This document shows, one piece after another, positions 19 to 12,784 of a stretch of DNA of 48,615 bases (its first letter is position 1; every line of letters begins with the position of its first letter). Made by a program: the position numbers and the translations under genes. A model generated the notes under the pieces. That model ran no database searches. It was given only the letters and a program-made list of their open reading frames with translations, and had not been told where the DNA came from. This stretch comes from Gemmatimonadota bacterium (GTDB taxonomy: Bacteria > Gemmatimonadota > Gemmatimonadetes > Gemmatimonadales > GWC2-71-9): NCBI GenBank assembly GCA_003222155.1, contig QHUU01000038.1, forward strand, positions 1 through 48,615, written 5' to 3'.

Positions 19-624
19 ATGGAGCACGACGACCTGATCACCCGCCGCCAAGCCCTCAGCCGGGTCGCCATCCTGTTGGGCGGCGCCATCTCGGCGCCCA
101 CGCTGGCGGGCGCGCTCGACGCCGCCACGCGGCGCTCCTGGATCGCGCCGCCGCAGGATTGGGCGCCGCGGACGCTCGACGCCGGCCAGCTCGAGCTCGT
201 CGCCGTGATGGCCGAGCACATCGTCCCCCAGACAGACACGCCGGGCGCCCGCGCGGCGGGCGTGCACCGCTTCGTGGACACCTTGCTGAGCGATCACTAC
301 CCGAGCCCCGAGCGCGATCGCTTCGTGGCGGGCCTGGCGGACGTCGACGCGCGGGCGCGGTCCCGGCACGGCAAGACGTTCGTCGAGTGCACGGCCGATC
401 AACAGGTGGCCCTGCTCACCGAGCTGGACGAGGCGGCGTATCCCGCGGTTCGGATCGATTCGCCCCGGGCCTCGGAGACCTGGTTCTTCCGACGCATGAA
501 GGAGCTGACCGTGGTCGGGTATTACACGTCGCAGGTCGGTGCGACGCAGGAGCTGCACCCCAGTCCGTTCGGCGCCTACCGCGGCGACATCCCCTACAGC
601 TCGGTCGGGAGGGCCTGGTCATGA
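19..624 (+). CDS. Gluconate 2-dehydrogenase subunit 3 family protein (small subunit of a periplasmic sugar dehydrogenase)
   Basis: A 201-residue protein with a twin-arginine-like N-terminus (TRRQALSR followed by a hydrophobic stretch, about residues 8-35), so it is probably exported folded. The body resembles the gluconate 2-dehydrogenase subunit 3 family: the LELVAVMAEHIVPQTDTPGA segment and the following helical region fit. Family members have no redox centre of their own; they act as chaperone or hitch-hiker partners that carry a GMC flavoprotein across the membrane by the Tat route. The next gene is exactly such a GMC protein and overlaps the stop codon by four bases (ATGA), so the two are translationally coupled. 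The ATG at 19 has GAGG about nine bases upstream. The gene lies at the window edge, so an upstream cytochrome or operon start may be missing. Confidence 0.88.
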   Translation: MEHDDLITRRQALSRVAILLGGAISAPTLAGALDAATRRSWIAPPQDWAPRTLDAGQLELVAVMAEHIVPQTDTPGARAAGVHRFVDTLLSDHYPSPERDRFVAGLADVDARARSRHGKTFVECTADQQVALLTELDEAAYPAVRIDSPRASETWFFRRMKELTVVGYYTSQVGATQELHPSPFGAYRGDIPYSSVGRAWS

Positions 625-2331: not shown

Positions 2332-4260
2332 ATGCAGACGATTGCGACCCTCGTCGCGCTGGCAGCGGCTCTGGCGGCCGGCCAGGGTCCGAGAAACCTG
2401 CTCACCGGTGGACTGAGCGAGCAGGCCCTAGCCGCCGCCCTGCTCCCGGCGGCCCACTGGCATCCCTATCCCACCATCCGGGACAGGGCCGATTGGGAGG
2501 CGGTTCCCCCGGAGATTCGCGCCGGGTTCATCCAGACAGCCGGCCAGTATCTGGGCACGACCTGGGAGCGCATCCCGGCCACAGTGACGTTGCAGTTCAT
2601 CCGCAACGGGAACCGCTCGAACTACGATGCGATAAACACCCGGCAGCGTGAGAAGCTGGCGACGCTGGTGCTCGCGGAGGTGTTCGAGAACGAGGGACGC
2701 TTCCTGGACGAGATCGCCGACGGGATCTGGGCGATTTCGGAACAGACCTTCTGGGGATCCACGGCGCACCTCGGCATGCAGCGCGCCGGGAACGGGCTGC
2801 CCGACGTCACCGAGCCGATCGTCGACCTGTTCGCCGCGGAAACCGGCGCGTTGCTCGCGTGGACCGATTACCTGCTCGGCCCCCGGCTCGACACGGTGTC
2901 GCCGCTGCTGCGGAAGCGTATCCGCGCCGAGGTCGACCGCCGCGTTCTTACGCCGGCGCTACAACGCGATGACTTCTGGTGGATGGGGTTCGGCGAACGC
3001 AAGAACGTCAACAACTGGAACCCGTGGATCAATTCCAACTGGCTCGCTGCCGTCCTGCTGCTCGAGCCTGACCCGCAGCGTCGCACTGCGGCCGTCCACA
3101 AGATCATGCGCTCCCTCGACAACTTCATCAATGTCTATCCGGACGACGGCGCCTCGGACGAAGGCCCGGGGTACTGGGGACGGGCCGGGGCGTCGCTGTT
3201 CGACAACCTGGAGCTGTTGCGCAGCGCGACCAACGGCACGGTCGACATCTACCGTTCGCCGCTCGTGCGCAACATGGGGCAGTACATCTACCGGGTCTAC
3301 ATCAAGGACGAGTACTTCGTCCCGATGGGTGACGCCGCGGCGAAAATTACGCCCGACGCCGAGCTGGTGTATCAATACGGGAAACGCATCGGCGATCCGG
3401 TCATGCAGGGATTCGGCGCGCTGCTCGCGCAACGCCGCGGCCCCTATCGACCCGGCGCTTCTTCACCCGGACGCATCCTCCCGGCGCTGCTCGTGGCGCG
3501 TGAGGTCGCCACGGCAAACGTCTCCGAGCCACTGCCCGGGTCGGTCTGGCTGGCGGATCTCCAGCTCATGGCGGCGCGGTCCGTTCCCAATTCGGCGCAG
3601 GGGTTGTACGTCGCCGCGTGGGGCGGCCACAACGCGCAGAGCCACAACCACAACGATGTCGGCAACTTCATCGTGTATGGGGATGGTAAACCGGTGCTGA
3701 TCGACGTCGGCGTGGAAACCTACTCGGCCAAGACGTTCAGCCCGCAGCGTTACGAGATCTGGACGATGCAATCCGCCTACCACAACCTGCCGACCATCAA
3801 CGGCATCATGCAGGGGGCCGGACGGGAGTTCCAGGCGAAGGACGTGTCCTTCAACGAAACGGCGAACCGGGTCACCTTTTCGGCCGACCTCGCCCCCGCC
3901 TACCCAGCCGAGGCGGCGGTGCGGCGCTGGCAGCGGCGCGTCACCCTCGACCGCAAAGCGTCCGTGGTGGAGTTGGAGGACCGCTACGAGCTGAGGCAGT
4001 GGAAAGAGCCGGTGCGCCTGAACCTCATGACACTACTGAGCGTGGACACCGCCAGGCCGGGCGAGGTTCGCCTCGGCGGTCGCTACCTTCTTACGTACGA
4101 TGCACGCGAGCTAAAGGCCGCCGCGGAGGAGATCCCGGTCTCCGACGAGCGGCTCCGCTCCGTGTGGGGCGACCGGCTCGAGCGGCTCGTGCTCACCGCG
4201 CAGGGAACGGGACTCAGAGGCGGTTACCGAGTGGTGCTGCGTGATGCGAAGCGATCCTAG
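2332..4260 (+). CDS. Secreted heparinase II/III-like polysaccharide lyase
   Basis: A 642-residue protein with a short signal peptide (about residues 1-17). It has an alpha-helical toroid N-terminal half followed by a beta-rich heparinase II/III-like domain. Typical landmarks are NNWNPWINSNW (about 227-237) and HNAQSHNHNDVGNF with His438, His440 and Asp442, which in the family lie at the catalytic and metal region. Members cleave uronic-acid-containing polysaccharides by beta-elimination; the substrate here (pectic, alginate-like or glucuronan) cannot be told from sequence. It begins seven bases after the GMC dehydrogenase stop, so it probably belongs to the same transcript. Its TAG stop shares bases with the stop of the convergent GH127-type gene: the two genes end tail to tail with a four-base overlap and no room for a terminator. 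Confidence 0.85.
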   Translation: MQTIATLVALAAALAAGQGPRNLLTGGLSEQALAAALLPAAHWHPYPTIRDRADWEAVPPEIRAGFIQTAGQYLGTTWERIPATVTLQFIRNGNRSNYDAINTRQREKLATLVLAEVFENEGRFLDEIADGIWAISEQTFWGSTAHLGMQRAGNGLPDVTEPIVDLFAAETGALLAWTDYLLGPRLDTVSPLLRKRIRAEVDRRVLTPALQRDDFWWMGFGERKNVNNWNPWINSNWLAAVLLLEPDPQRRTAAVHKIMRSLDNFINVYPDDGASDEGPGYWGRAGASLFDNLELLRSATNGTVDIYRSPLVRNMGQYIYRVYIKDEYFVPMGDAAAKITPDAELVYQYGKRIGDPVMQGFGALLAQRRGPYRPGASSPGRILPALLVAREVATANVSEPLPGSVWLADLQLMAARSVPNSAQGLYVAAWGGHNAQSHNHNDVGNFIVYGDGKPVLIDVGVETYSAKTFSPQRYEIWTMQSAYHNLPTINGIMQGAGREFQAKDVSFNETANRVTFSADLAPAYPAEAAVRRWQRRVTLDRKASVVELEDRYELRQWKEPVRLNLMTLLSVDTARPGEVRLGGRYLLTYDARELKAAAEEIPVSDERLRSVWGDRLERLVLTAQGTGLRGGYRVVLRDAKRS

Positions 4261-6743
4261 CGCGTGGCGTCGCCACGAATCATCCGCAGCGCGAAGACGG
4301 TGGCGATCTGGCTCCCGGCCTTGGCCTGGAACCGCACCGTCACCCTGGCCTTTCCAGCGACTAAGTCCTGAGGAATCCGATACTCGACATCGAAGAACTG
4401 GTGCGGGTCCGAGAGCCGGAGCGCCTGGTCGGCCACGCGCCGACCGTCGACTTGAATCTCGAACTCCGCGGGCGTGCCGCGCCGGTCGCCACTGTAGTAG
4501 GTCGCGAGCAGCACCATCGGATGTGCGGACTCCACGGGCACGTCGTAGGAGAACCAGCTCGTCCCTCGCCGTCCCGGGCGGCCCAGGATGCGCTGCGGCA
4601 CAGCGCCCTCGCCAGCCTGGTAGTTGAACTGACGCTCGAAGACGACTTCACCGGGCTCGAGGTACGCCACCGTGGCCGCTTCGAGCCGCCGCACCCGCTC
4701 GGCCTCCGCCGCGTATTCGGCTTTCTTGGACTCCCACTCGCCCGGCGTGAACAGGTCCCAGTAAGTCGCATAGGTGCGGCGGTGCAGGCGGTAGAACGGC
4801 ACGAACTCCACGGCCCGCTCGTGCTCCGTGGCGTCGGGCTCCCGGCCGACGCCGTCCGTGCGGAAGCGCACCGGAGTCCCATCCAGCGGCTTGAGCCACT
4901 CGGCGACCGGCCGCTCGGCTGCGACGAGCACAGGCACCTTGGGCGGCGGCTGAATCGCTTCGCCTTCCGCCGGTTCTCGCGACCGCTCCGGCCCCAGGTC
5001 GCCCGCCAGCACGAGCGGACCCCACATGAGGGACGCGCGGCGCGGATTGTCGGCGAGGGACTCGACGCCGAGGGACTTGGGTAAGGTCACCTCTACGGTG
5101 TCGCCGGCCCGCCAGGTGCGCTTCAGCTCGACGTACGAGCTGACGGGATACGCGTAGCCGTACTGACGGCGCCCACGCGCCGTGTCCCGATCGACAATCT
5201 CCGTTTCGTCCTGCCGCAGCGGCTCGCCGTTGAGCTTTACGGCGAACCCCGCGCCCGCCCAGTAGGGACGACGCAGGGCCAGGGTGAAATGCCTCGGGGC
5301 TGCCGGACTGAGCACGAGCTTCGCCGTCTCCCCTTCGGGGAATCCCGTGTCCATGGCCAGCCGCGCCCGGGCCGCGGCCCACTCCGCCGTCGAGGGCGCG
5401 TAGAGACTCACCCACAGCTTGTCGCCGGCCTCGTAGTAGATGCCGTCGCCGTGGAGGGCGTGGCTCTCCATTCCCGTCCCCACGTCGCAGGTGAAGCCGT
5501 GGAACATGTCCTGGTACTCGTGCTGCACGCCCCGGCCGACCGGAACCATGTAGCACACGCGGCCGTCCTCCGGGTCGATCGACGCCATGATGTGATTGAA
5601 CAGCGCCCGCTCGTGGTAATCGGCGTAGTGCGCGTCGGGCTCGAGGGCGAAGAGCTGTCGCGTTAGCTTCAGCATGTTGTAGACGTTGCACGTCTCGCAG
5701 GTGCGCCCGTCGATCAGGTCGCTCAGCTTGTCGGGCGGGCCGAAGTACTCGTCCTTGCCGTGACCGCCGGTGGCGAAGCTATGATGCTGCGCCACCTGAT
5801 CCCAGAAGAAGCCCGCCGCCAAGAGGTCGGCCGGGGCGCCGGCGTAGACGAAGCGCTTCACCGATCCGAGCAGCTTGGGGATCTGGGTGTTGCCGTGCGT
5901 GCCGCCCAGGTCGTCCTGGTGGCGCTCCAACGGCTCGATGAACGCCCGGTGCTCGAACTTGTAGGAGAGCCGGAGCCAACGCTCGTCACCCGTGTCGGCA
6001 TACAGATCGGCCATCACTTCGTTCATGCCGCCGAATTCGGTATTCAGCATGTGCTGGATCTGCGCGTCGTCGAGCCCCGAGAGCACGCGCTCCGCCCACG
6101 CCGCGAACTTGATCTCGACGGCGAGCGCTGTGCCGTTACCCGTGTAGCGGTACGCGTCCCGCAGACCGGCGTACATCTTGTGCAGGGTGTACCAGGGGGA
6201 CCACTCCCCGTTCAAGTCGAAGGCGGCGGAGCGGATCTCCCCGCGGGCGAGGGCGGCGAACGCCTTGCGCCCTCCCTCGAGCGCGCAGAGGTAGCCGTCG
6301 CCGTGAGCGCGCTGCACGGCCGCGAGCTCCTGGACCATGTACGCCGCGCGCTGTTTCAGCCTGGCGTCGCCCGTGGCCGCCCACATCAGGCTCACGGCCG
6401 AGAGGTGATGACCGGCGATGTGGCCGGTGAGATTGCGGCCTCCGCCGTCCCACCCACCGTACGGCTCGGCTTTCGGCGCCAGGCCGGCGCGCTGCCGGTA
6501 ATACGCCAGCATGCGGTCGGGCTCGAGCGCGAGCAGGTACTGCCGATCGAGCTCCTGTGCATGTTTTAGCGGCCCGCCCGTCAAGCGGACGGCGCTCAAG
6601 GGGAGGGGGCGGGCCCGGAGGACGGCTCGGCCGCGGGGACTGTGTGTGGCGTGGTCTCGGGCCAGAACCGGAAAGCCGCCTAACAGCGGCACGGCGCCCG
6701 CGCCAAGACCGAGCTTGAGGGCGTTCCGGCGGGAAAGCGTCAT
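4257..6743 (-). CDS. GH127/GH146-type beta-L-arabinofuranosidase (DUF1680) with an altered cysteine pair
   Basis: An 828-residue exported enzyme with a Tat-like signal (SRRNALKLGLGAGA, residues 4-17). The DUF1680 helical-toroid domain is recognised from YGGWDGGGRNLTGHIAGHHL, NGEWSPWYTLHKMYAGLRDA and GRTCETCNVYNMLKL (Glu350, Cys352). A C-terminal beta-sandwich extension covers about residues 700-825. The family removes terminal beta-L-arabinofuranose, as in HypBA1, where a Cys nucleophile sits in a zinc site made by Glu338, Cys340, Cys417 and Cys418. Here the corresponding Cys-Cys is Cys419-Asp420 (FTCDVGTGME), so one expected zinc ligand is Asp. Activity is likely but not assured. The start overlaps the stop of the GntR regulator gene (ATGA), placing it last in the SusC-SusD-plug-GntR unit. 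Its Tat signal implies periplasmic action on imported oligosaccharide. Confidence 0.9.
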   Translation of the reverse strand: MTLSRRNALKLGLGAGAVPLLGGFPVLARDHATHSPRGRAVLRARPLPLSAVRLTGGPLKHAQELDRQYLLALEPDRMLAYYRQRAGLAPKAEPYGGWDGGGRNLTGHIAGHHLSAVSLMWAATGDARLKQRAAYMVQELAAVQRAHGDGYLCALEGGRKAFAALARGEIRSAAFDLNGEWSPWYTLHKMYAGLRDAYRYTGNGTALAVEIKFAAWAERVLSGLDDAQIQHMLNTEFGGMNEVMADLYADTGDERWLRLSYKFEHRAFIEPLERHQDDLGGTHGNTQIPKLLGSVKRFVYAGAPADLLAAGFFWDQVAQHHSFATGGHGKDEYFGPPDKLSDLIDGRTCETCNVYNMLKLTRQLFALEPDAHYADYHERALFNHIMASIDPEDGRVCYMVPVGRGVQHEYQDMFHGFTCDVGTGMESHALHGDGIYYEAGDKLWVSLYAPSTAEWAAARARLAMDTGFPEGETAKLVLSPAAPRHFTLALRRPYWAGAGFAVKLNGEPLRQDETEIVDRDTARGRRQYGYAYPVSSYVELKRTWRAGDTVEVTLPKSLGVESLADNPRRASLMWGPLVLAGDLGPERSREPAEGEAIQPPPKVPVLVAAERPVAEWLKPLDGTPVRFRTDGVGREPDATEHERAVEFVPFYRLHRRTYATYWDLFTPGEWESKKAEYAAEAERVRRLEAATVAYLEPGEVVFERQFNYQAGEGAVPQRILGRPGRRGTSWFSYDVPVESAHPMVLLATYYSGDRRGTPAEFEIQVDGRRVADQALRLSDPHQFFDVEYRIPQDLVAGKARVTVRFQAKAGSQIATVFALRMIRGDATR

Positions 6744-7486
6744 ACCGAACCTACATCTGGGCGGCCGTCTTTCTCGGCGGCGTCACCGCTCTGGGCCGCG
6801 TAGTACCGCCGCACGAACGGTTCCTGGTAGCTGAACGACCAGTGCACGTCGCGCAGCAGGTCCGCCGCGGCGCCCACGTTCCCCTGCTCCAGGCAGCGGA
6901 CCATGGCCTCGTGCTCCTCCACTGAGGCGCGCTCCCACTCGGGCACGAAGCCCTTGAGCCGGGGGAAGTCGTAGAGGCGCTGCTTGAGCAGGTGGACCTG
7001 CCGGACCAGCTCGGCGTTGTCCGACAGATTCAGATACGTGTCGTGGAACGCCAGGTTGGTGTCGTAGAAGCGAGCGAAGTCGGATGCGTCCAACGCCCGA
7101 ACCATCTCGCAGTTCAGCTGGCGCATGCGGGCCACGGTCTCGGCCGTGACGCGGGTAGCGACGGACCGCAGGGTGGTGGATTCCAGCGCGCCGAGGATCT
7201 CGTAGATGTGCCTGATGCGGTCCAGGCTGAGCGGCGCGACACGGACGCCCCGGCGGTTATGAATCTCGACGAACCCCTCACATTCGAGACGCAGCAAGGC
7301 GTCGCGCAACGGGGTGCGGCTGATCCCGATCTCTCGCGCCAGGGCATTGAGATCGAGGTACTTGCCGGGGCGGAGGCGTCCGCGGTTCACGAGCGCCCGG
7401 AGGCGGTCGTACACCTCCTCGCGGAGCGAGCGGAGCGGTCGCTTCACCCGGCGTGCGGCTGCGGAGCGAGGGGGCGCGCTGGTCAT
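6740..7486 (-). CDS. GntR/FadR-type transcriptional regulator
   Basis: A 248-residue DNA-binding regulator. The winged helix-turn-helix is at about residues 18-85 (EEVYDRLRALVNRGRLRPGK, then LAREIGISRTPLRDALLRLE). An all-helical FCD ligand-binding domain follows (about 90-225), with the Asp and His residues typical of the metal site in FYDTNLAFHDTYL. FCD regulators usually repress sugar- or uronate-utilisation operons and release DNA when a pathway intermediate binds. It is the only transcription factor in the window and sits inside the SusCD/GH127 unit, 31 bases after the plug-domain lipoprotein gene and overlapping the GH127-type gene by four bases. Autoregulation of this operon is therefore likely. 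Two CTGATNNATCAG palindromes upstream of the SusC gene have the size and symmetry of GntR-family operators. The start ATG at 7486 has GAGGCG upstream. Confidence 0.93.
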   Translation of the reverse strand: MTSAPPRSAAARRVKRPLRSLREEVYDRLRALVNRGRLRPGKYLDLNALAREIGISRTPLRDALLRLECEGFVEIHNRRGVRVAPLSLDRIRHIYEILGALESTTLRSVATRVTAETVARMRQLNCEMVRALDASDFARFYDTNLAFHDTYLNLSDNAELVRQVHLLKQRLYDFPRLKGFVPEWERASVEEHEAMVRCLEQGNVGAAADLLRDVHWSFSYQEPFVRRYYAAQSGDAAEKDGRPDVGSV

Positions 7487-7517
7487 CAGTTTCGCCTCGT
7501 GGTAATGATGATCACGC

Positions 7518-8021
7518 TTAGCGCTTCAGCCTAATCAAAATGACGCCGTTGGCTCCCAGGCTGCCGTAGATCGCCGTGGTGCTCAGGTCCCTGAGAACGG
7601 TGATGCTTTCCACATCGTGCGGATTCAGCCCCTTCAAGGCCAGCCGGATCGCTCGCGGATGCACCGGCATCCCGTCAATGACCAGGAGCGGCTGGTTCGA
7701 CGCGTCGTCACTCTGAAGCGATTGAAACGCGCCGCGGATCCTGAGCCGGATCTCCCCGCCGGGTAGCTCCGTCACCTGCAGCCCCGCCACGTGTCCCCGC
7801 AGCATGTCGAGCACGTCCCGGAGATCGTCGCTTTCCTGCGCCGGGACGCTGGTCACGGCCCCGGTGCTCTTCGCCGCCTCCTGCGCACCGTAAGGGACGG
7901 GGATCGAGTCAGGTTCGTGGCTCGGGGCTGGAGCGCCGGCGTCGGATCGACCAGGGGCACGGCTGCATCCGGGCACGAGCAGCATCATGCACCAGGCGGC
8001 GGAGACCAACGCACGGGCCAT
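7518..8021 (-). CDS. Small lipoprotein consisting of a stand-alone TonB-receptor plug domain
   Basis: A 167-residue predicted lipoprotein: the signal peptide ends in LVPGC with Cys19 as the lipidated residue. A low-complexity linker follows (about 20-60), then a single plug-like domain. The domain aligns by eye with the plugs of the three SusC proteins here: LRDVLDMLRGHVAGLQV, PLLVIDGMPV, LNPHDVESITVLRD and AIYGSLGANGVILI all have direct counterparts. No beta-barrel follows; the protein ends in RLKR exactly where SusC plugs lead into the barrel. It lies between the SusD gene (101 bases upstream) and the GntR gene. It could be a plug remnant of a lost receptor, or a real accessory lipoprotein binding SusC, SusD, TonB or glycan. 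The intact lipobox and open frame favour a functional gene. The ATG at 8021 is preferred over a TTG at 8081 because it gives a clean signal peptide. Confidence 0.75.
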   Translation of the reverse strand: MARALVSAAWCMMLLVPGCSRAPGRSDAGAPAPSHEPDSIPVPYGAQEAAKSTGAVTSVPAQESDDLRDVLDMLRGHVAGLQVTELPGGEIRLRIRGAFQSLQSDDASNQPLLVIDGMPVHPRAIRLALKGLNPHDVESITVLRDLSTTAIYGSLGANGVILIRLKR

Positions 8022-8122
8022 ACGGGCTGCCGACCTAACCTTCCCGTCCCCCAGCGCCGCACGCCGCCGCCGTGCTGGCAAGCGCCACCGCTCGGAGGCT
8101 TCTCGCAGGCATGGTCATCGCC

Positions 8123-9781
8123 CTAGTATCCCGGGTTCTGCTTGAGGTTTGGGTTCGCGTCAATCGCCGACTGTGGAATCGGATAAATCCGCCAGTGCGT
8201 GTCGGCGTCCGCCGCGTGATTGAACCAGGCCTTGGTACTGAACACCCCAAACCGGATGAGGTCCTGCCGCCGGTGGCCCTCGACCGCGAACTCCCACCCC
8301 AGTTCGTCCAGGAAGCGCCCATACTGGATGTCCGCTCCCCCGAACGCTCCTCCCGTGGTGGCCGTCACAGGCGTGCCGCCCGGTCCGGTCTTGACGATCC
8401 CGTCCGTATCATACCAGCCGTACAGATAGGTACTGCCTTGCATGAGGGCCGCGCCGGTCACGGTGGCCTTGGCCGGGTTGGTGGCCGCGAACGCCCGCTG
8501 CCTCACCTGGGTGACGAGCGCGGCAGCTGCATCCGCCTGGCCAGTCCGGAGGAGCGCCTCCGCCTGCATCATGAGGACCTCGGCATAGCGGACGATGGGG
8601 TAATCCACGTCGGACGACCCCGTTTCGCCAGAGTAGATCTCGTACTTCCAGACCGGGAAGCCGAGCCGGAACGCATTCGGGCCCCGGAACTGCGGGATGG
8701 TGTCGGTGAAATCGTAGCCGAACTGCGCGTCCGCCGTGAAGTGCGAGCCCATGAGCCAGGTGTCCTGCTTCCGGTGGTCATCCGGATCGTAGGAGTCAAC
8801 GAACTGTGGGTTGCCGGCGCTCCCGCCCCACGGCTGAGCGTCCATGTTGAATACGTACCTGAGTTCCGGTTTCAGCGTCTTCATGTGGAAGTTGCTGACG
8901 GGGAGATAGACGTGGTCGTAAGGTACGGCCCAGATCACCTCGTGGGACTGTCCGCCGTCCAGCGGCCCGGCAGCCACGGAGAACGGCGTGCGATACGACG
9001 GATCGAGCGCATACTTGCCGCCGTCGATGATGTCCTGGGTCAGTGGGATCACTTTGTCGTACGCCGGGGTCCCGACGTACACGTCGGCGTTCAGGTAGAC
9101 CCGCGCCAGGATCGCTTCCGCCGCCCAACGATTCATCCGGCCGTACATCGCCACGCCGGCTTCTTTCGAAAGACCCGGGATCACGGCGGTCAGCTCGGTC
9201 ACCACGAAGTCGTAGACTTCCTGGGCGGTGTTCTGCTTGGGCAGGTCCTTCGCCGTGAAATCGGTGACGATGGAAACGTTGCGGAAGTCGTCGAGCAACA
9301 GCGAGTAGTCGTAGGCACGCAACGCCCGGAGCTCGGCCAGAATGCCCGCCCTTGCGCTGTCATTCGTCACCGGAATGGTCCCGGACTCGATCTGGTAGAT
9401 CACCCGGTTCACGTCGTTGATGGAGCTGAAGCAGTCGCCCCAGGTATGGCTGAAGGTGTATGAGTTCAGCGTCCAGCTGTGCGTGTGCTGCCGGTAGTAC
9501 ACCCCGCCGTCCCACCAGCCGTTGACCCGTTCCGGCGTCACCAGCACGTCCGCCGGCTCTTCCTGCGCCACGTCCACAATCCCGTACCACCCCATGTACA
9601 TGTCGGCGAGGACCCGGTAAGCCGGCGCGACCAGGGAGCCCAGGTCCTTCTCGCCGGGCTTGAAGTTTGTGTCCGTGATCTCGTCGTAGACCGTTTCGTT
9701 GAGGTCGGTGCAGGCACCTGCTGCCAGAAGCAGGAAGCCGAGCGGCAGGAGTGCGGCCCTTACGGTGGAGAAGGTCGGCAT
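8123..9781 (-). CDS. SusD/RagB-family glycan-binding outer-membrane lipoprotein
   Basis: A 552-residue lipoprotein: the signal peptide ends at Cys24 (LAAGAC). SusD features include the early LNETVYDEITDTNF region, TPR-like helices with NDVNRVIYQIESGTIP and AELRALRAYDYSLLL, the VRYAEVLMMQAEALLRTG helix, and the C-terminal sequence IPQSAIDANPNLKQNPGY that closes nearly all SusD proteins. It is expected to sit as a lid on the SusC barrel encoded just upstream and to capture oligosaccharide at the cell surface. The start ATG at 9781 has AAGGAG eight bases upstream and lies 12 bases after the SusC stop, so SusC and SusD are co-transcribed. The glycan is unknown; the operon's GH127-type gene suggests arabinose-containing material. 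Confidence 0.95.
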   Translation of the reverse strand: MPTFSTVRAALLPLGFLLLAAGACTDLNETVYDEITDTNFKPGEKDLGSLVAPAYRVLADMYMGWYGIVDVAQEEPADVLVTPERVNGWWDGGVYYRQHTHSWTLNSYTFSHTWGDCFSSINDVNRVIYQIESGTIPVTNDSARAGILAELRALRAYDYSLLLDDFRNVSIVTDFTAKDLPKQNTAQEVYDFVVTELTAVIPGLSKEAGVAMYGRMNRWAAEAILARVYLNADVYVGTPAYDKVIPLTQDIIDGGKYALDPSYRTPFSVAAGPLDGGQSHEVIWAVPYDHVYLPVSNFHMKTLKPELRYVFNMDAQPWGGSAGNPQFVDSYDPDDHRKQDTWLMGSHFTADAQFGYDFTDTIPQFRGPNAFRLGFPVWKYEIYSGETGSSDVDYPIVRYAEVLMMQAEALLRTGQADAAAALVTQVRQRAFAATNPAKATVTGAALMQGSTYLYGWYDTDGIVKTGPGGTPVTATTGGAFGGADIQYGRFLDELGWEFAVEGHRRQDLIRFGVFSTKAWFNHAADADTHWRIYPIPQSAIDANPNLKQNPGY

Positions 9782-9793
9782 GGTCGCACTCCT

Positions 9794-12784
9794 TCAGAAC
9801 GTGAGGTTGAAGCCGAGGGTGAACACCCGTGTCGTTGGGTACTGGTCCCGGTGGTCGGTGCCGGGATTGAGATCTGTCCCGGTAACCGTGCGGACCTCCG
9901 GATCCATTCCCTTGTAACCCGAGATGGTCAGAAGATTGCGGCCCGCCAGATAGATCCGGGCCCTTTGGACCGTGCCGGACAAGAACGCCGGGAGCCTGGC
10001 GAAGGTGTACCCGAGGGTGGCGTTGTCCACTTTCCAGTAGTCGCCGTCCTCGATGTAGTAGCTGACGTACACCAGCGGATAGTCCAGCACATGCTTGCCG
10101 TACACGGGATCGAGCGCCGAACGAAGCATGTTGTACTGGGTGTTGTTCAGATTCTCGTAGTACAGGCGGCCGAAGTTCAGGATCTGGAACCCGAACGCGC
10201 CCCGCATGTTCACCGTGAGGTCCAGGTTCCCCCATCGCACGGAGTTGTTGAACGCCACATAGTGCTTCGGGACCCCGTTCCCCAGCACCCGTCGGTCCTT
10301 GGCCGTGGCCTGCGTGATCGGGATTCGGTTGCCCAGGGAATCGAGCACGATCCACTCGCCGGTATTACTGATGTCCACGGACTTGTAGCCGTAGAAGTCG
10401 CCAATGGGCCCGCCGATGCAGACTCGGTGGGTGGAAGTCTGAATGGGCTCGCCGGTGTACCCGGTCTCGAAGCACTCGTCCGCCTGGTACACATCGTTGG
10501 ACAAGCTCAGGAGCCGGTTCCGGTTGGTGGACCAGTTGGCGCTGGCCTGCCAGCGGAACTTGGTCCCGCGCGCCACGTCGTAGGTGAGGGACGCCTCGAC
10601 GCCCTCGTTCCGCATGTGACCCACATTGGCCAGAATGCTATTGTACAGGTAGGGCGGCACCGGCACGTTGTAGTTATACAGCATGTCCCGCGTATCCCGC
10701 CGATACAGATCCAGCGTGCCGGCCATGCGGTAGTCGAACAGCGAGAAATCCACCCCCACGTTGTACTCCGCCTTCTTTTCCCAGCGCAGGTCCGGGTTGG
10801 CGTTCCGGACCGGCACAAGCCCCGGCACCCACTGGCCGCCCACCGGAAAATTGAAGGTTGTCCCGTCGGGCAGCTGGTACGCGTAGGTCGTGAGCGACAG
10901 ATACGGGTTGCTGGGCGCGATGCCGGTGACGCCGTACCCGGCCCGCAGCTTGAGATCGCTGAAGACCGCCGGGACGAAGCTCTCCTTCGAGAGGCGCCAC
11001 CCCAGCGAGACGCCGGGGAACACACCCCACTTGTGAGCCGCGCCGAACCGGCTGTCGCCTTCATAGCGCAGGCTGAGCATGGCAAGGAAGCGGTCGTTCC
11101 AGTCCCAGTTGAGCCGGCCGAAGAACCCGATCGTCCGGTAGGACGACTTGCTGCTTCCCATTCCTGCCACGCCCTGCGGCAACCCGCTTCCCGACTCCAG
11201 CGAGCTGTAGCCGAATAGGTCGGTGGGAAAGCGGTTGTTGTTGGCGTTGAAGCCTTCGTCCAGCCGGTCCAAGTAGCTGTAGCCGCCCAGCAGCGTCACA
11301 TGATGACCGCCGAACGCGCCGGTGTAGGTACCAGTGGCTTCCAGCACCTGGCTCTCGTTGGAGCTGGTGCTGCGGCTGGCGCTGTTGATCCCGGGAACGT
11401 CCGGGTTGTCCAGGCTACGCCACGTGCCTCGGATCCATTCTCCGCGGTCCGTACCCACCAGGAGCGAGAGGCTCAACGGGTCCACCGGCCGGAACCGTAG
11501 GGTCCCGTGTAACCGGAGGTCACGCGATTCGAAATCCCCCCCGTACGTATTCAGCATCTGTATCGGGTTGGTGTAGAAGTAGGTCCCCCGGACCTGGTAA
11601 TTGCCGGCGGCGTCGTAGATCCGGTCGGTGGGATTCCGGATGGTCGCCTGACGCCACATGTAGTTGAAGTCCACGCCGTCGAAGCGCTTCTCCCAGCCGG
11701 TCACCATGTTGAGGTCGGCGGTGAGCTTTCCACCGTACATCGAGTGGCCGATGTTCACACGACCGGTGACCGCCCGGTTGTTCGACTTCTGAAAGATCCC
11801 GTCATCGTTTTGGTAGGTGAGCGAGGCGATGTAGTTCGTGGCTCCCGACGTTCCGCCCAGGATGCTCAAGTTCTGATTGTGGCTGATGGGCGTCCCTCGC
11901 ATCACCACTCGGCGCCAGTCCGTCGCGTAGCCCAGGTCGGTAAACGTGTTTCCCGCCGGGGTCTTGAAGCTGTCCGCCGCTAGGCGCTCAACATCGGCCG
12001 CGGTGAGAAAGGCCGGCATCTTGTAGATGCTCTGGATGCTGGTGTAGGAGTCATACCGTAGCACCGGGCGGTCGCTGTCTTGCCGCTTGGTGGTGATCAG
12101 GATGACGCCGTTGGAGGCGCGCGAGCCGTAGATGGCCGCGGCCGACGCATCTTTCAGCACGTCAATCGACGCGACGTCCTGGGGGGCCACGGTCTTCAGG
12201 TCGCCCGGGACGCCATCCACCAGGACCAGGGGAGAGGTGGACGCGTTGAGTGTACCAAACCCGCGCAGCAGGACCTCGGTCCCGGCGGCGGGATCCCCGC
12301 TCGGTGTATTCACGACGAGGCCGGCGATCTTCCCCGCGACCAGCGACGCGATATCCCGTGGTGGCGTCTGCACGAAATCTTTCGCAGTTACGCTCCCAAC
12401 CGCGCCGGTGATGTCCTCACGGCGCTGGGTGCCGTAGCCCACGACCACCAGCCCCTCGAGCTCCACCGCCTGTGCCTGCAGCTGGAAATCGGCGGTTGCC
12501 GTTTGCCCGGAGACGACGGTGACGCTGAGTGCGACTGTGGCATATCCGATGTGGCGTGCGCGCGCGGTGGTCTCCCCCGTCGGCACCCCCGCGATCAGGA
12601 ACCGGCCGTCCACGCCGGTGACGGCCGAGAGCCGCGTCGCCGCCCCGATGCTCACCTCGGCGCCGACCAGCGCGGCGCCGGTCATCTTGTCCGTAACCGC
12701 TCCGGCTACTGTGCCGACATCCTGGGCGCGGGCCCATTCGAGTGGGAGCAACGCGAGCAGCGACACGACGACGGCGCGGTTCAT
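9794..12784 (-). CDS. SusC/RagA-family TonB-dependent outer-membrane transporter
   Basis: A 996-residue receptor. In order: a signal peptide (about 1-20, ending WARAQ), a carboxypeptidase-D-like regulatory beta-sandwich (about 22-105), a plug domain (from VVVGYGTQRREDITGAV to AAIYGSRASNGVILITTKR), and a long beta-barrel ending in an aromatic residue (FNLTF). This architecture and length are those of SusC. It imports oligosaccharides across the outer membrane, powered by TonB, with the SusD encoded next. The ATG at 12784 is chosen over a reading frame reaching back to 13000 because it is preceded by GGAGG and gives a proper signal peptide; the extension is Arg- and Cys-rich and not protein-like. 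It heads the minus-strand unit SusC-SusD-plug-GntR-GH127 and is preceded by a 357-base leader with two palindromes. Confidence 0.95.
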   Translation of the reverse strand: MNRAVVVSLLALLPLEWARAQDVGTVAGAVTDKMTGAALVGAEVSIGAATRLSAVTGVDGRFLIAGVPTGETTARARHIGYATVALSVTVVSGQTATADFQLQAQAVELEGLVVVGYGTQRREDITGAVGSVTAKDFVQTPPRDIASLVAGKIAGLVVNTPSGDPAAGTEVLLRGFGTLNASTSPLVLVDGVPGDLKTVAPQDVASIDVLKDASAAAIYGSRASNGVILITTKRQDSDRPVLRYDSYTSIQSIYKMPAFLTAADVERLAADSFKTPAGNTFTDLGYATDWRRVVMRGTPISHNQNLSILGGTSGATNYIASLTYQNDDGIFQKSNNRAVTGRVNIGHSMYGGKLTADLNMVTGWEKRFDGVDFNYMWRQATIRNPTDRIYDAAGNYQVRGTYFYTNPIQMLNTYGGDFESRDLRLHGTLRFRPVDPLSLSLLVGTDRGEWIRGTWRSLDNPDVPGINSASRSTSSNESQVLEATGTYTGAFGGHHVTLLGGYSYLDRLDEGFNANNNRFPTDLFGYSSLESGSGLPQGVAGMGSSKSSYRTIGFFGRLNWDWNDRFLAMLSLRYEGDSRFGAAHKWGVFPGVSLGWRLSKESFVPAVFSDLKLRAGYGVTGIAPSNPYLSLTTYAYQLPDGTTFNFPVGGQWVPGLVPVRNANPDLRWEKKAEYNVGVDFSLFDYRMAGTLDLYRRDTRDMLYNYNVPVPPYLYNSILANVGHMRNEGVEASLTYDVARGTKFRWQASANWSTNRNRLLSLSNDVYQADECFETGYTGEPIQTSTHRVCIGGPIGDFYGYKSVDISNTGEWIVLDSLGNRIPITQATAKDRRVLGNGVPKHYVAFNNSVRWGNLDLTVNMRGAFGFQILNFGRLYYENLNNTQYNMLRSALDPVYGKHVLDYPLVYVSYYIEDGDYWKVDNATLGYTFARLPAFLSGTVQRARIYLAGRNLLTISGYKGMDPEVRTVTGTDLNPGTDHRDQYPTTRVFTLGFNLTF

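Follow-up and report, generated by a model that had tools for sequence, protein, structure and literature searches.

The window, the whole stretch of 48,615 nucleotides that was analyzed, comes from a soil Gemmatimonadota genome (Gemmatimonadales) and carries a susC-susD-plug run (Table 1). The order is anchored by a genome of the same order (G230) with DNA identical over 15 kb to plasmid 2 of Gemmatirosa kalamazoonensis; the host belongs to a different family from Gemmatirosa. The plug gene is the last of the run, ahead of a GntR gene; its placement between SusD and a GntR regulator by an earlier sequence-only reading agrees with the gene order. The SusC and SusD next to it are both complete. 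The GH127 neighbour suggests arabinan or an arabinoside as the substrate of the operon. A scan of positions 7300-8300 for promoters and terminators found none. The short remnant upstream of the plug gene derives from a first plug-lipoprotein gene that the sister locus L144 has in full (sequence comparison, with a gap in blastn). A split receptor, with the plug encoded here and the barrel elsewhere, was considered and ruled out, because a plug, a TonB box, and a barrel are all present in the adjacent SusC itself. Since this SusC is already supplied with a plug and a TonB box, the plug lipoprotein is regarded as an accessory protein.

Table 1. Positions of the plug-only gene, its neighbours, and related loci. 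Residue numbers refer to the 167-aa product.
Feature	Position	Strand	Description
Plug-only lipoprotein gene	7518..8021	minus	ATG 8021 to TAA 7518, 167 aa
Signal peptide	residues 1-18		
Predicted lipidated cysteine	Cys19		
Linker	residues ~20-37		
TonB-box-like motif	residues 38-45		DSIPVPYG
SusC-type plug domain	residues ~50-167		
Remnant of first plug gene (plug1)	8035..8112	minus	25 codons, MPARSLRAVALASTAAACGAGGREG*; ends after signal peptide and lipobox
susD	8123..9781	minus	SusD_RagB, 552 aa; lipoprotein, acidic residues after Cys (CTDLNETVYDE)
susC	9794..12784	minus	own plug, TonB box EGLVVVGYGTQ, barrel, NTE-like domain; start possibly up to 13000
GntR/FCD regulator	6740..7486	minus	
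GH127 beta-L-arabinofuranosidase	4257..6743	minus	
plug1, whole copy	L144 3534-3986		Pfam Plug E 5e-11
susC-susD-plug loci			window, L024, L025, L046, L047, L087, L088, L091, L095, L098, L099, L106, L109, L113, L115, L131
Further susC-susD-plug loci			L144; L238 (by SusD alone)
VCBS/ASPIC-GH97 subfamily			L026, L049, L050, L051, L092-L096, L102, L110, L112 (L095 itself of the susCD-linked type)
Small-barrel loci	L025:7849-8385		also L089, L090, L095, L097, L098, L099, L100, L101, L103, L131
Distant plug-like subfamily	L055:8226-8690; L056:1715-2155		also L130, L132, L134, L138
Frame in Cellulophaga	L203 3332-4456	plus	375 aa, plug near its end

A plug without a barrel

A Pfam search of the 167-aa product returned a single domain, Plug PF07715, over residues 50-160 and with near complete coverage of the profile (3-107 of 107); its score of 52.9 bits (E 6e-14) exceeds the cut-off of 23.9. 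The SusC/RagA signature TIGR04057 was matched at 47.6 bits (cut-off 46.2). The longer SusC/RagA model TIGR04056 scored 108.9 bits, short of its cut-off of 368.25, and aligned over the plug part only (profile 84-204 of 981). The product is not a full-length SusC/RagA receptor with a 22-strand barrel; the stop codon comes directly after the plug and before the first barrel strand, and the earlier description of a plug-like domain ending where the barrel should begin was thus accurate. In a phmmer search, the product matched the plugs of solved SusC/RagA proteins (best 7e-16). The domain search gave no match to an STN domain in the plug protein, which is hence not a FecA-type signalling receptor.

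An AlphaFold2 model, for which 55 sequences from the window and the collected loci were used as input, reached a pLDDT of ~90 or higher for the greater part of residues 70-167, with less confidence around 90-110 and at the N-terminus. The best matches of the model among solved structures were SusC plugs (Foldseek 1e-8 to SusC 8aa4; VIA Z 10.4 to Bt1763). In the alignment to Bt1763, model residue 39 falls opposite residue 84, which lies at the TonB box of Bt1763. The lipobox had been described as intact, a wording that is slightly too strong for a box that reads L-V-P-G-C, with proline at -2. Proline at this position falls outside the usual lipobox pattern. The lipoboxes of relatives are canonical, e.g. 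VIGC, AAGC, and VAAC, and a lipobox-like cysteine is found in 88 of the 97 collected plug proteins.

Family, selection, and gene contexts

About 90 relatives of the same size, all barrel-less and nearly all lipobox-bearing, were collected from six families of the host's class, so the search for same-length homologues that the sequence-only reading had proposed was successful. The source genome itself holds two further plug-only genes of the window type, and two genes of a second type lie in it in tandem. A family-level profile search gave a match in 73 of 102 genomes, SusC plugs being counted too, and the best-scoring matches were short frames that span the whole profile, including the lipoprotein part. 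In a class-wide sample, matches at E 1e-34 or better were present in 56 of 295 genomes; they were mostly short frames and fall in families f1, f2, f4, f5, f7, and f8. Judged by these sequence comparisons, the window protein belongs to a family of SusC-type plug lipoproteins without a barrel that is conserved in Gemmatimonadota. In 40 Bacteroidota genomes, no clear plug-only lipoprotein was seen among the matches listed (best ~150), which were frames of SusC length aligning only from the plug onward, except one of 366 aa. Separately, a frame in Cellulophaga with the plug near its end may be either a SusC with a frameshift or a true plug-only gene.

The sister locus L144 has the gene order susC-susD-plug1-plug2. 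Its plug2 differs from the window gene by 12 bases, comprising 11 synonymous changes and 1 replacement. The resulting omega is 0.03 for the plug, compared with 0.26 for susD and 0.18 for susC, and the probability of at most one replacement change under neutrality is 3e-6. Other plug pairs that were compared gave omega values of 0 to 0.47. The proposed dN/dS check therefore revealed no relaxation, and these codon comparisons indicate that the window plug lipoprotein is under purifying selection. Together with the same-length homologues, they support a genuine plug without a barrel and not a truncated SusC. That the gene might be a decayed, functionless remnant of SusC is refuted for the family and highly improbable for the window copy; the sequence-only reading had judged decay to be less likely. 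The window copy has diverged at positions fixed elsewhere and the adjacent first copy has truly been reduced to 25 codons, but decay is contradicted by the low omega, by the same-size relatives throughout the class, and by a signal peptide and lipid-bearing cysteine placed directly before the plug, which is not so in SusC. As a side observation, L144 (VBEO01000151.1) is labelled 'Chloroflexi bacterium CF_28' in GenBank and is 91-97% identical to the Gemmatimonadota window locus; the label of this MAG is probably a binning or naming error.

A co-directional susC-susD-plug order recurs across several genera, in about 16 loci, and is often preceded by an ECF sigma factor and FecR. In L113, from another genus, the order is the same as in the window, susC-susD-plug-GntR, and identities to the window are 59% for SusC, 61% for SusD, 75% for GntR, and 45% for the plug. 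Many other family members adjoin different systems without a co-directional susCD, namely VCBS/ASPIC and GH97 genes, SSS symporters, or an M23 peptidase. The second subfamily, often in tandem pairs, lies near VCBS/ASPIC repeat proteins and GH97 genes and has no TonB box. In 11 loci, a small conserved gene for an outer-membrane barrel (~170 aa) follows within tens of bases of the plug gene; susCD is absent from six of these, where the plug and small-barrel pair thus travels alone. A distant plug-like subfamily, separate in the tree, has the same location in several genomes, close to an M23 peptidase and metG.

The sigma-FecR-susC-susD-plug order in several loci raises the possibility of a signalling partner, in which the plug would relay the state of the transporter to the anti-sigma factor (in loci with ECF sigma, FecR, and an STN-bearing SusC) or, in the window, to GntR. 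Such a role is improbable, given that the plug protein has no STN domain while the SusCs of the sigma/FecR loci carry one themselves, that a GntR/FCD regulator is cytoplasmic and needs no periplasmic relay, and that many loci are without sigma/FecR.

A tree of 161 plug domains (129 columns) was used to place the standalone plugs. The standalone label required 3 changes on this tree, compared with 52.8 in shuffles. A single branch, at a modest SH-aLRT of 71, separates all 79 of 79 standalone plugs of the main group from every SusC. The window plug forms a pair with a standalone plug from a different family (SH-aLRT 97). The window plug is 41% identical to the neighbouring SusC plug. Recent copying from that plug is disfavoured by the tree and by this identity, although an AU test permits it, since a sister position to its own SusC plug was not rejected (p 0.36). 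With 129 columns, AU tests are expected to leave alternatives open. Several columns are peculiar to standalone plugs (E71, R77, G89, L129, R155, and G156), and some residues near-fixed in SusC plugs are relaxed in them (E138, S139, and the KDASA stretch). The relaxed SusC residues, together with positions fixed only in standalone plugs (E71, R77, G89, and R155), hint at a different contact. Of the susCD-linked copies, that of the window is one of the most divergent, carrying L71, H77, L146, and L155 at positions fixed elsewhere.

Membrane orientation and the TonB-box-like motif

In Bacteroidetes, acidic residues after the lipidated cysteine drive the export of lipoproteins to the cell surface (PMC5080379). 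At least two acidic residues at +2 to +11 after the cysteine were present in 10% of the plugs and 94% of the SusDs (p 6e-14), a contrast to which conservation within the SusD family may contribute. The window plug, CSRAPGRSDAGA, has no acidic export-type motif after the cysteine and so lacks the surface-export feature of the Bacteroidetes type, by a rule known from Bacteroidetes only. Because the plugs are without the acidic run that SusDs carry, by a rule from a phylum other than that of the host, they are probably anchored in the outer membrane and face the periplasm. Modulation of SusC gating and glycan binding had been among the initial suggestions and may hold; glycan binding at the cell surface, however, is less likely given the missing sorting motif. 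As an observation on the SusDs themselves, the acidic residues directly after the lipid-bearing cysteine in 94% of 33 SusDs at the collected loci are a candidate surface-export signal of Gemmatimonadota.

A TonB-box-like motif (DEVSVGYGTQ-like) is located 11-22 residues after the cysteine in 23 of about 87 members, including L228, which was added by eye. It occupies the place of the SusC TonB box, which in Bt1763 reads DEVVVTG (PMC7782687). The window motif, DSIPVPYG, bears prolines, is weakened, and fits the loose pattern only, whereas relatives show clear DEVSVGYG-type boxes. Adjacency to susCD, counted by eye, was found for 13 of the 23 box carriers and 8 of the 64 others (Fisher 7e-5, uncorrected for kinship). 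The box is absent in several susCD-adjacent members (L025, L095, L099, L109, L113, L115, and L131). The initial suggestion that the protein binds TonB thus gains partial support from sequence: the motif has a constant location in roughly one-quarter of the members, is absent in most, and is weakened here.

One use of such a box would be as a TonB adaptor or sink, by which the lipoprotein recruits TonB to the SusC of the operon or keeps TonB away from it. A constant distance of 11-22 residues from the anchor in several families, while the linker varies, and the enrichment beside susCD are consistent with this role. It is nevertheless rather unlikely, as the motif is missing from most members, including several that are susCD-adjacent, the purifying selection on the plug itself would be left unexplained, and the window box is degenerate.

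Possible roles beside SusCD

The explanation that we prefer, and hold tentatively, is that the protein may be a lipid-tethered spare plug that acts in trans on SusC barrels from the periplasmic side. In vitro, the SusC plug of Bt1762-63 leaves its barrel when the SusD lid closes, and it is absent from the closed Bt1763 barrel (PMC7782687). The tethered plug would be held under the mouth of the SusC barrel on the periplasmic side and would occupy or guard the barrel vacated by SusC's own plug during the import cycle. Through the TonB-box-like stretch close to the lipid anchor, TonB would be able to remove the tethered plug or would be drawn to the complex. This explanation is preferred because a SusC-type plug has been kept, the gene lies in a susCD operon, and SusC plugs leave the barrel in vitro. 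In older work on E. coli FhuA, an isolated TonB-receptor plug could reportedly be supplied in trans to its own barrel.

The tethered spare plug is further supported by the presence of a plug fold and a SusC signature and no further domain, purifying selection (omega 0.03 against L144), the repeated susC-susD-plug order, the grouping of standalone plugs in the tree, the lack of an acidic export-like motif of the kind seen in SusD, and a TonB-box-like motif near the cysteine that is enriched beside susCD. Against it, the neighbouring SusC is complete and has no obvious gap for a spare plug to fill, many members adjoin other systems without a co-directional susCD, and the family-specific and relaxed residues hint at a different contact. 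In addition, the window box carries prolines, the AU test permits a sister relationship between the window plug and the plug of the adjacent SusC, and the evidence for the sorting rule comes from Bacteroidetes and not from Gemmatimonadota. The broader proposal of a phylum-wide family of periplasm-facing spare plugs, moved by TonB via the anchor-proximal box and forming an undescribed gating subunit of SusCD, is conceivable and doubtful.

The other gene contexts and the family-specific residues make a second explanation nearly as likely as the spare plug, and likewise possible without being probable: the plug fold may have been repurposed as a periplasm-facing module that serves outer-membrane barrels in interaction or assembly, SusC in some loci and the ~170-aa barrel in others, independently of TonB. 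Most members have no TonB box yet retain the fold, conserved positions are peculiar to standalone plugs, and the small barrel gene follows the plug in 11 loci, six of them without susCD. However, the window has no small barrel gene and its plug is tied to susCD, and the TonB box is kept far more often beside susCD, as counted over related sequences that are not independent.

Whether as a spare plug or otherwise, the protein can be compared with three known systems. It resembles the plug of SusC/RagA (Bt1763, RagA) in fold, signature motif, and the position of the TonB-box-like stretch ahead of the plug, and differs by having no barrel, no NTE domain, a lipid anchor, and its own conserved residues. 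Like SusD and the surface lipoproteins of SusCD utilisomes, it is a predicted lipoprotein of the same operon; unlike them, it has no acidic export-type motif, has an unrelated fold, and probably faces the periplasm. Some relatives lie in ECF sigma-FecR-susCD operons, which recalls FecA/FoxA-type STN receptors, but the plug protein is without STN and a signalling role is not indicated.

A literature search, with most subscription papers outside its scope, returned nothing to the point on plug-only lipoproteins or Gemmatimonadota SusCD. As far as searched, the protein represents a new, undescribed architecture of a known domain. It marks an uncharacterised accessory family in the glycan uptake of Gemmatimonadota, a phylum for whose SusCD systems the search returned little literature. 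A natural plug-only protein conserved beside SusCD offers a direct handle on whether the plug stays in or leaves the barrel during TonB-driven import.
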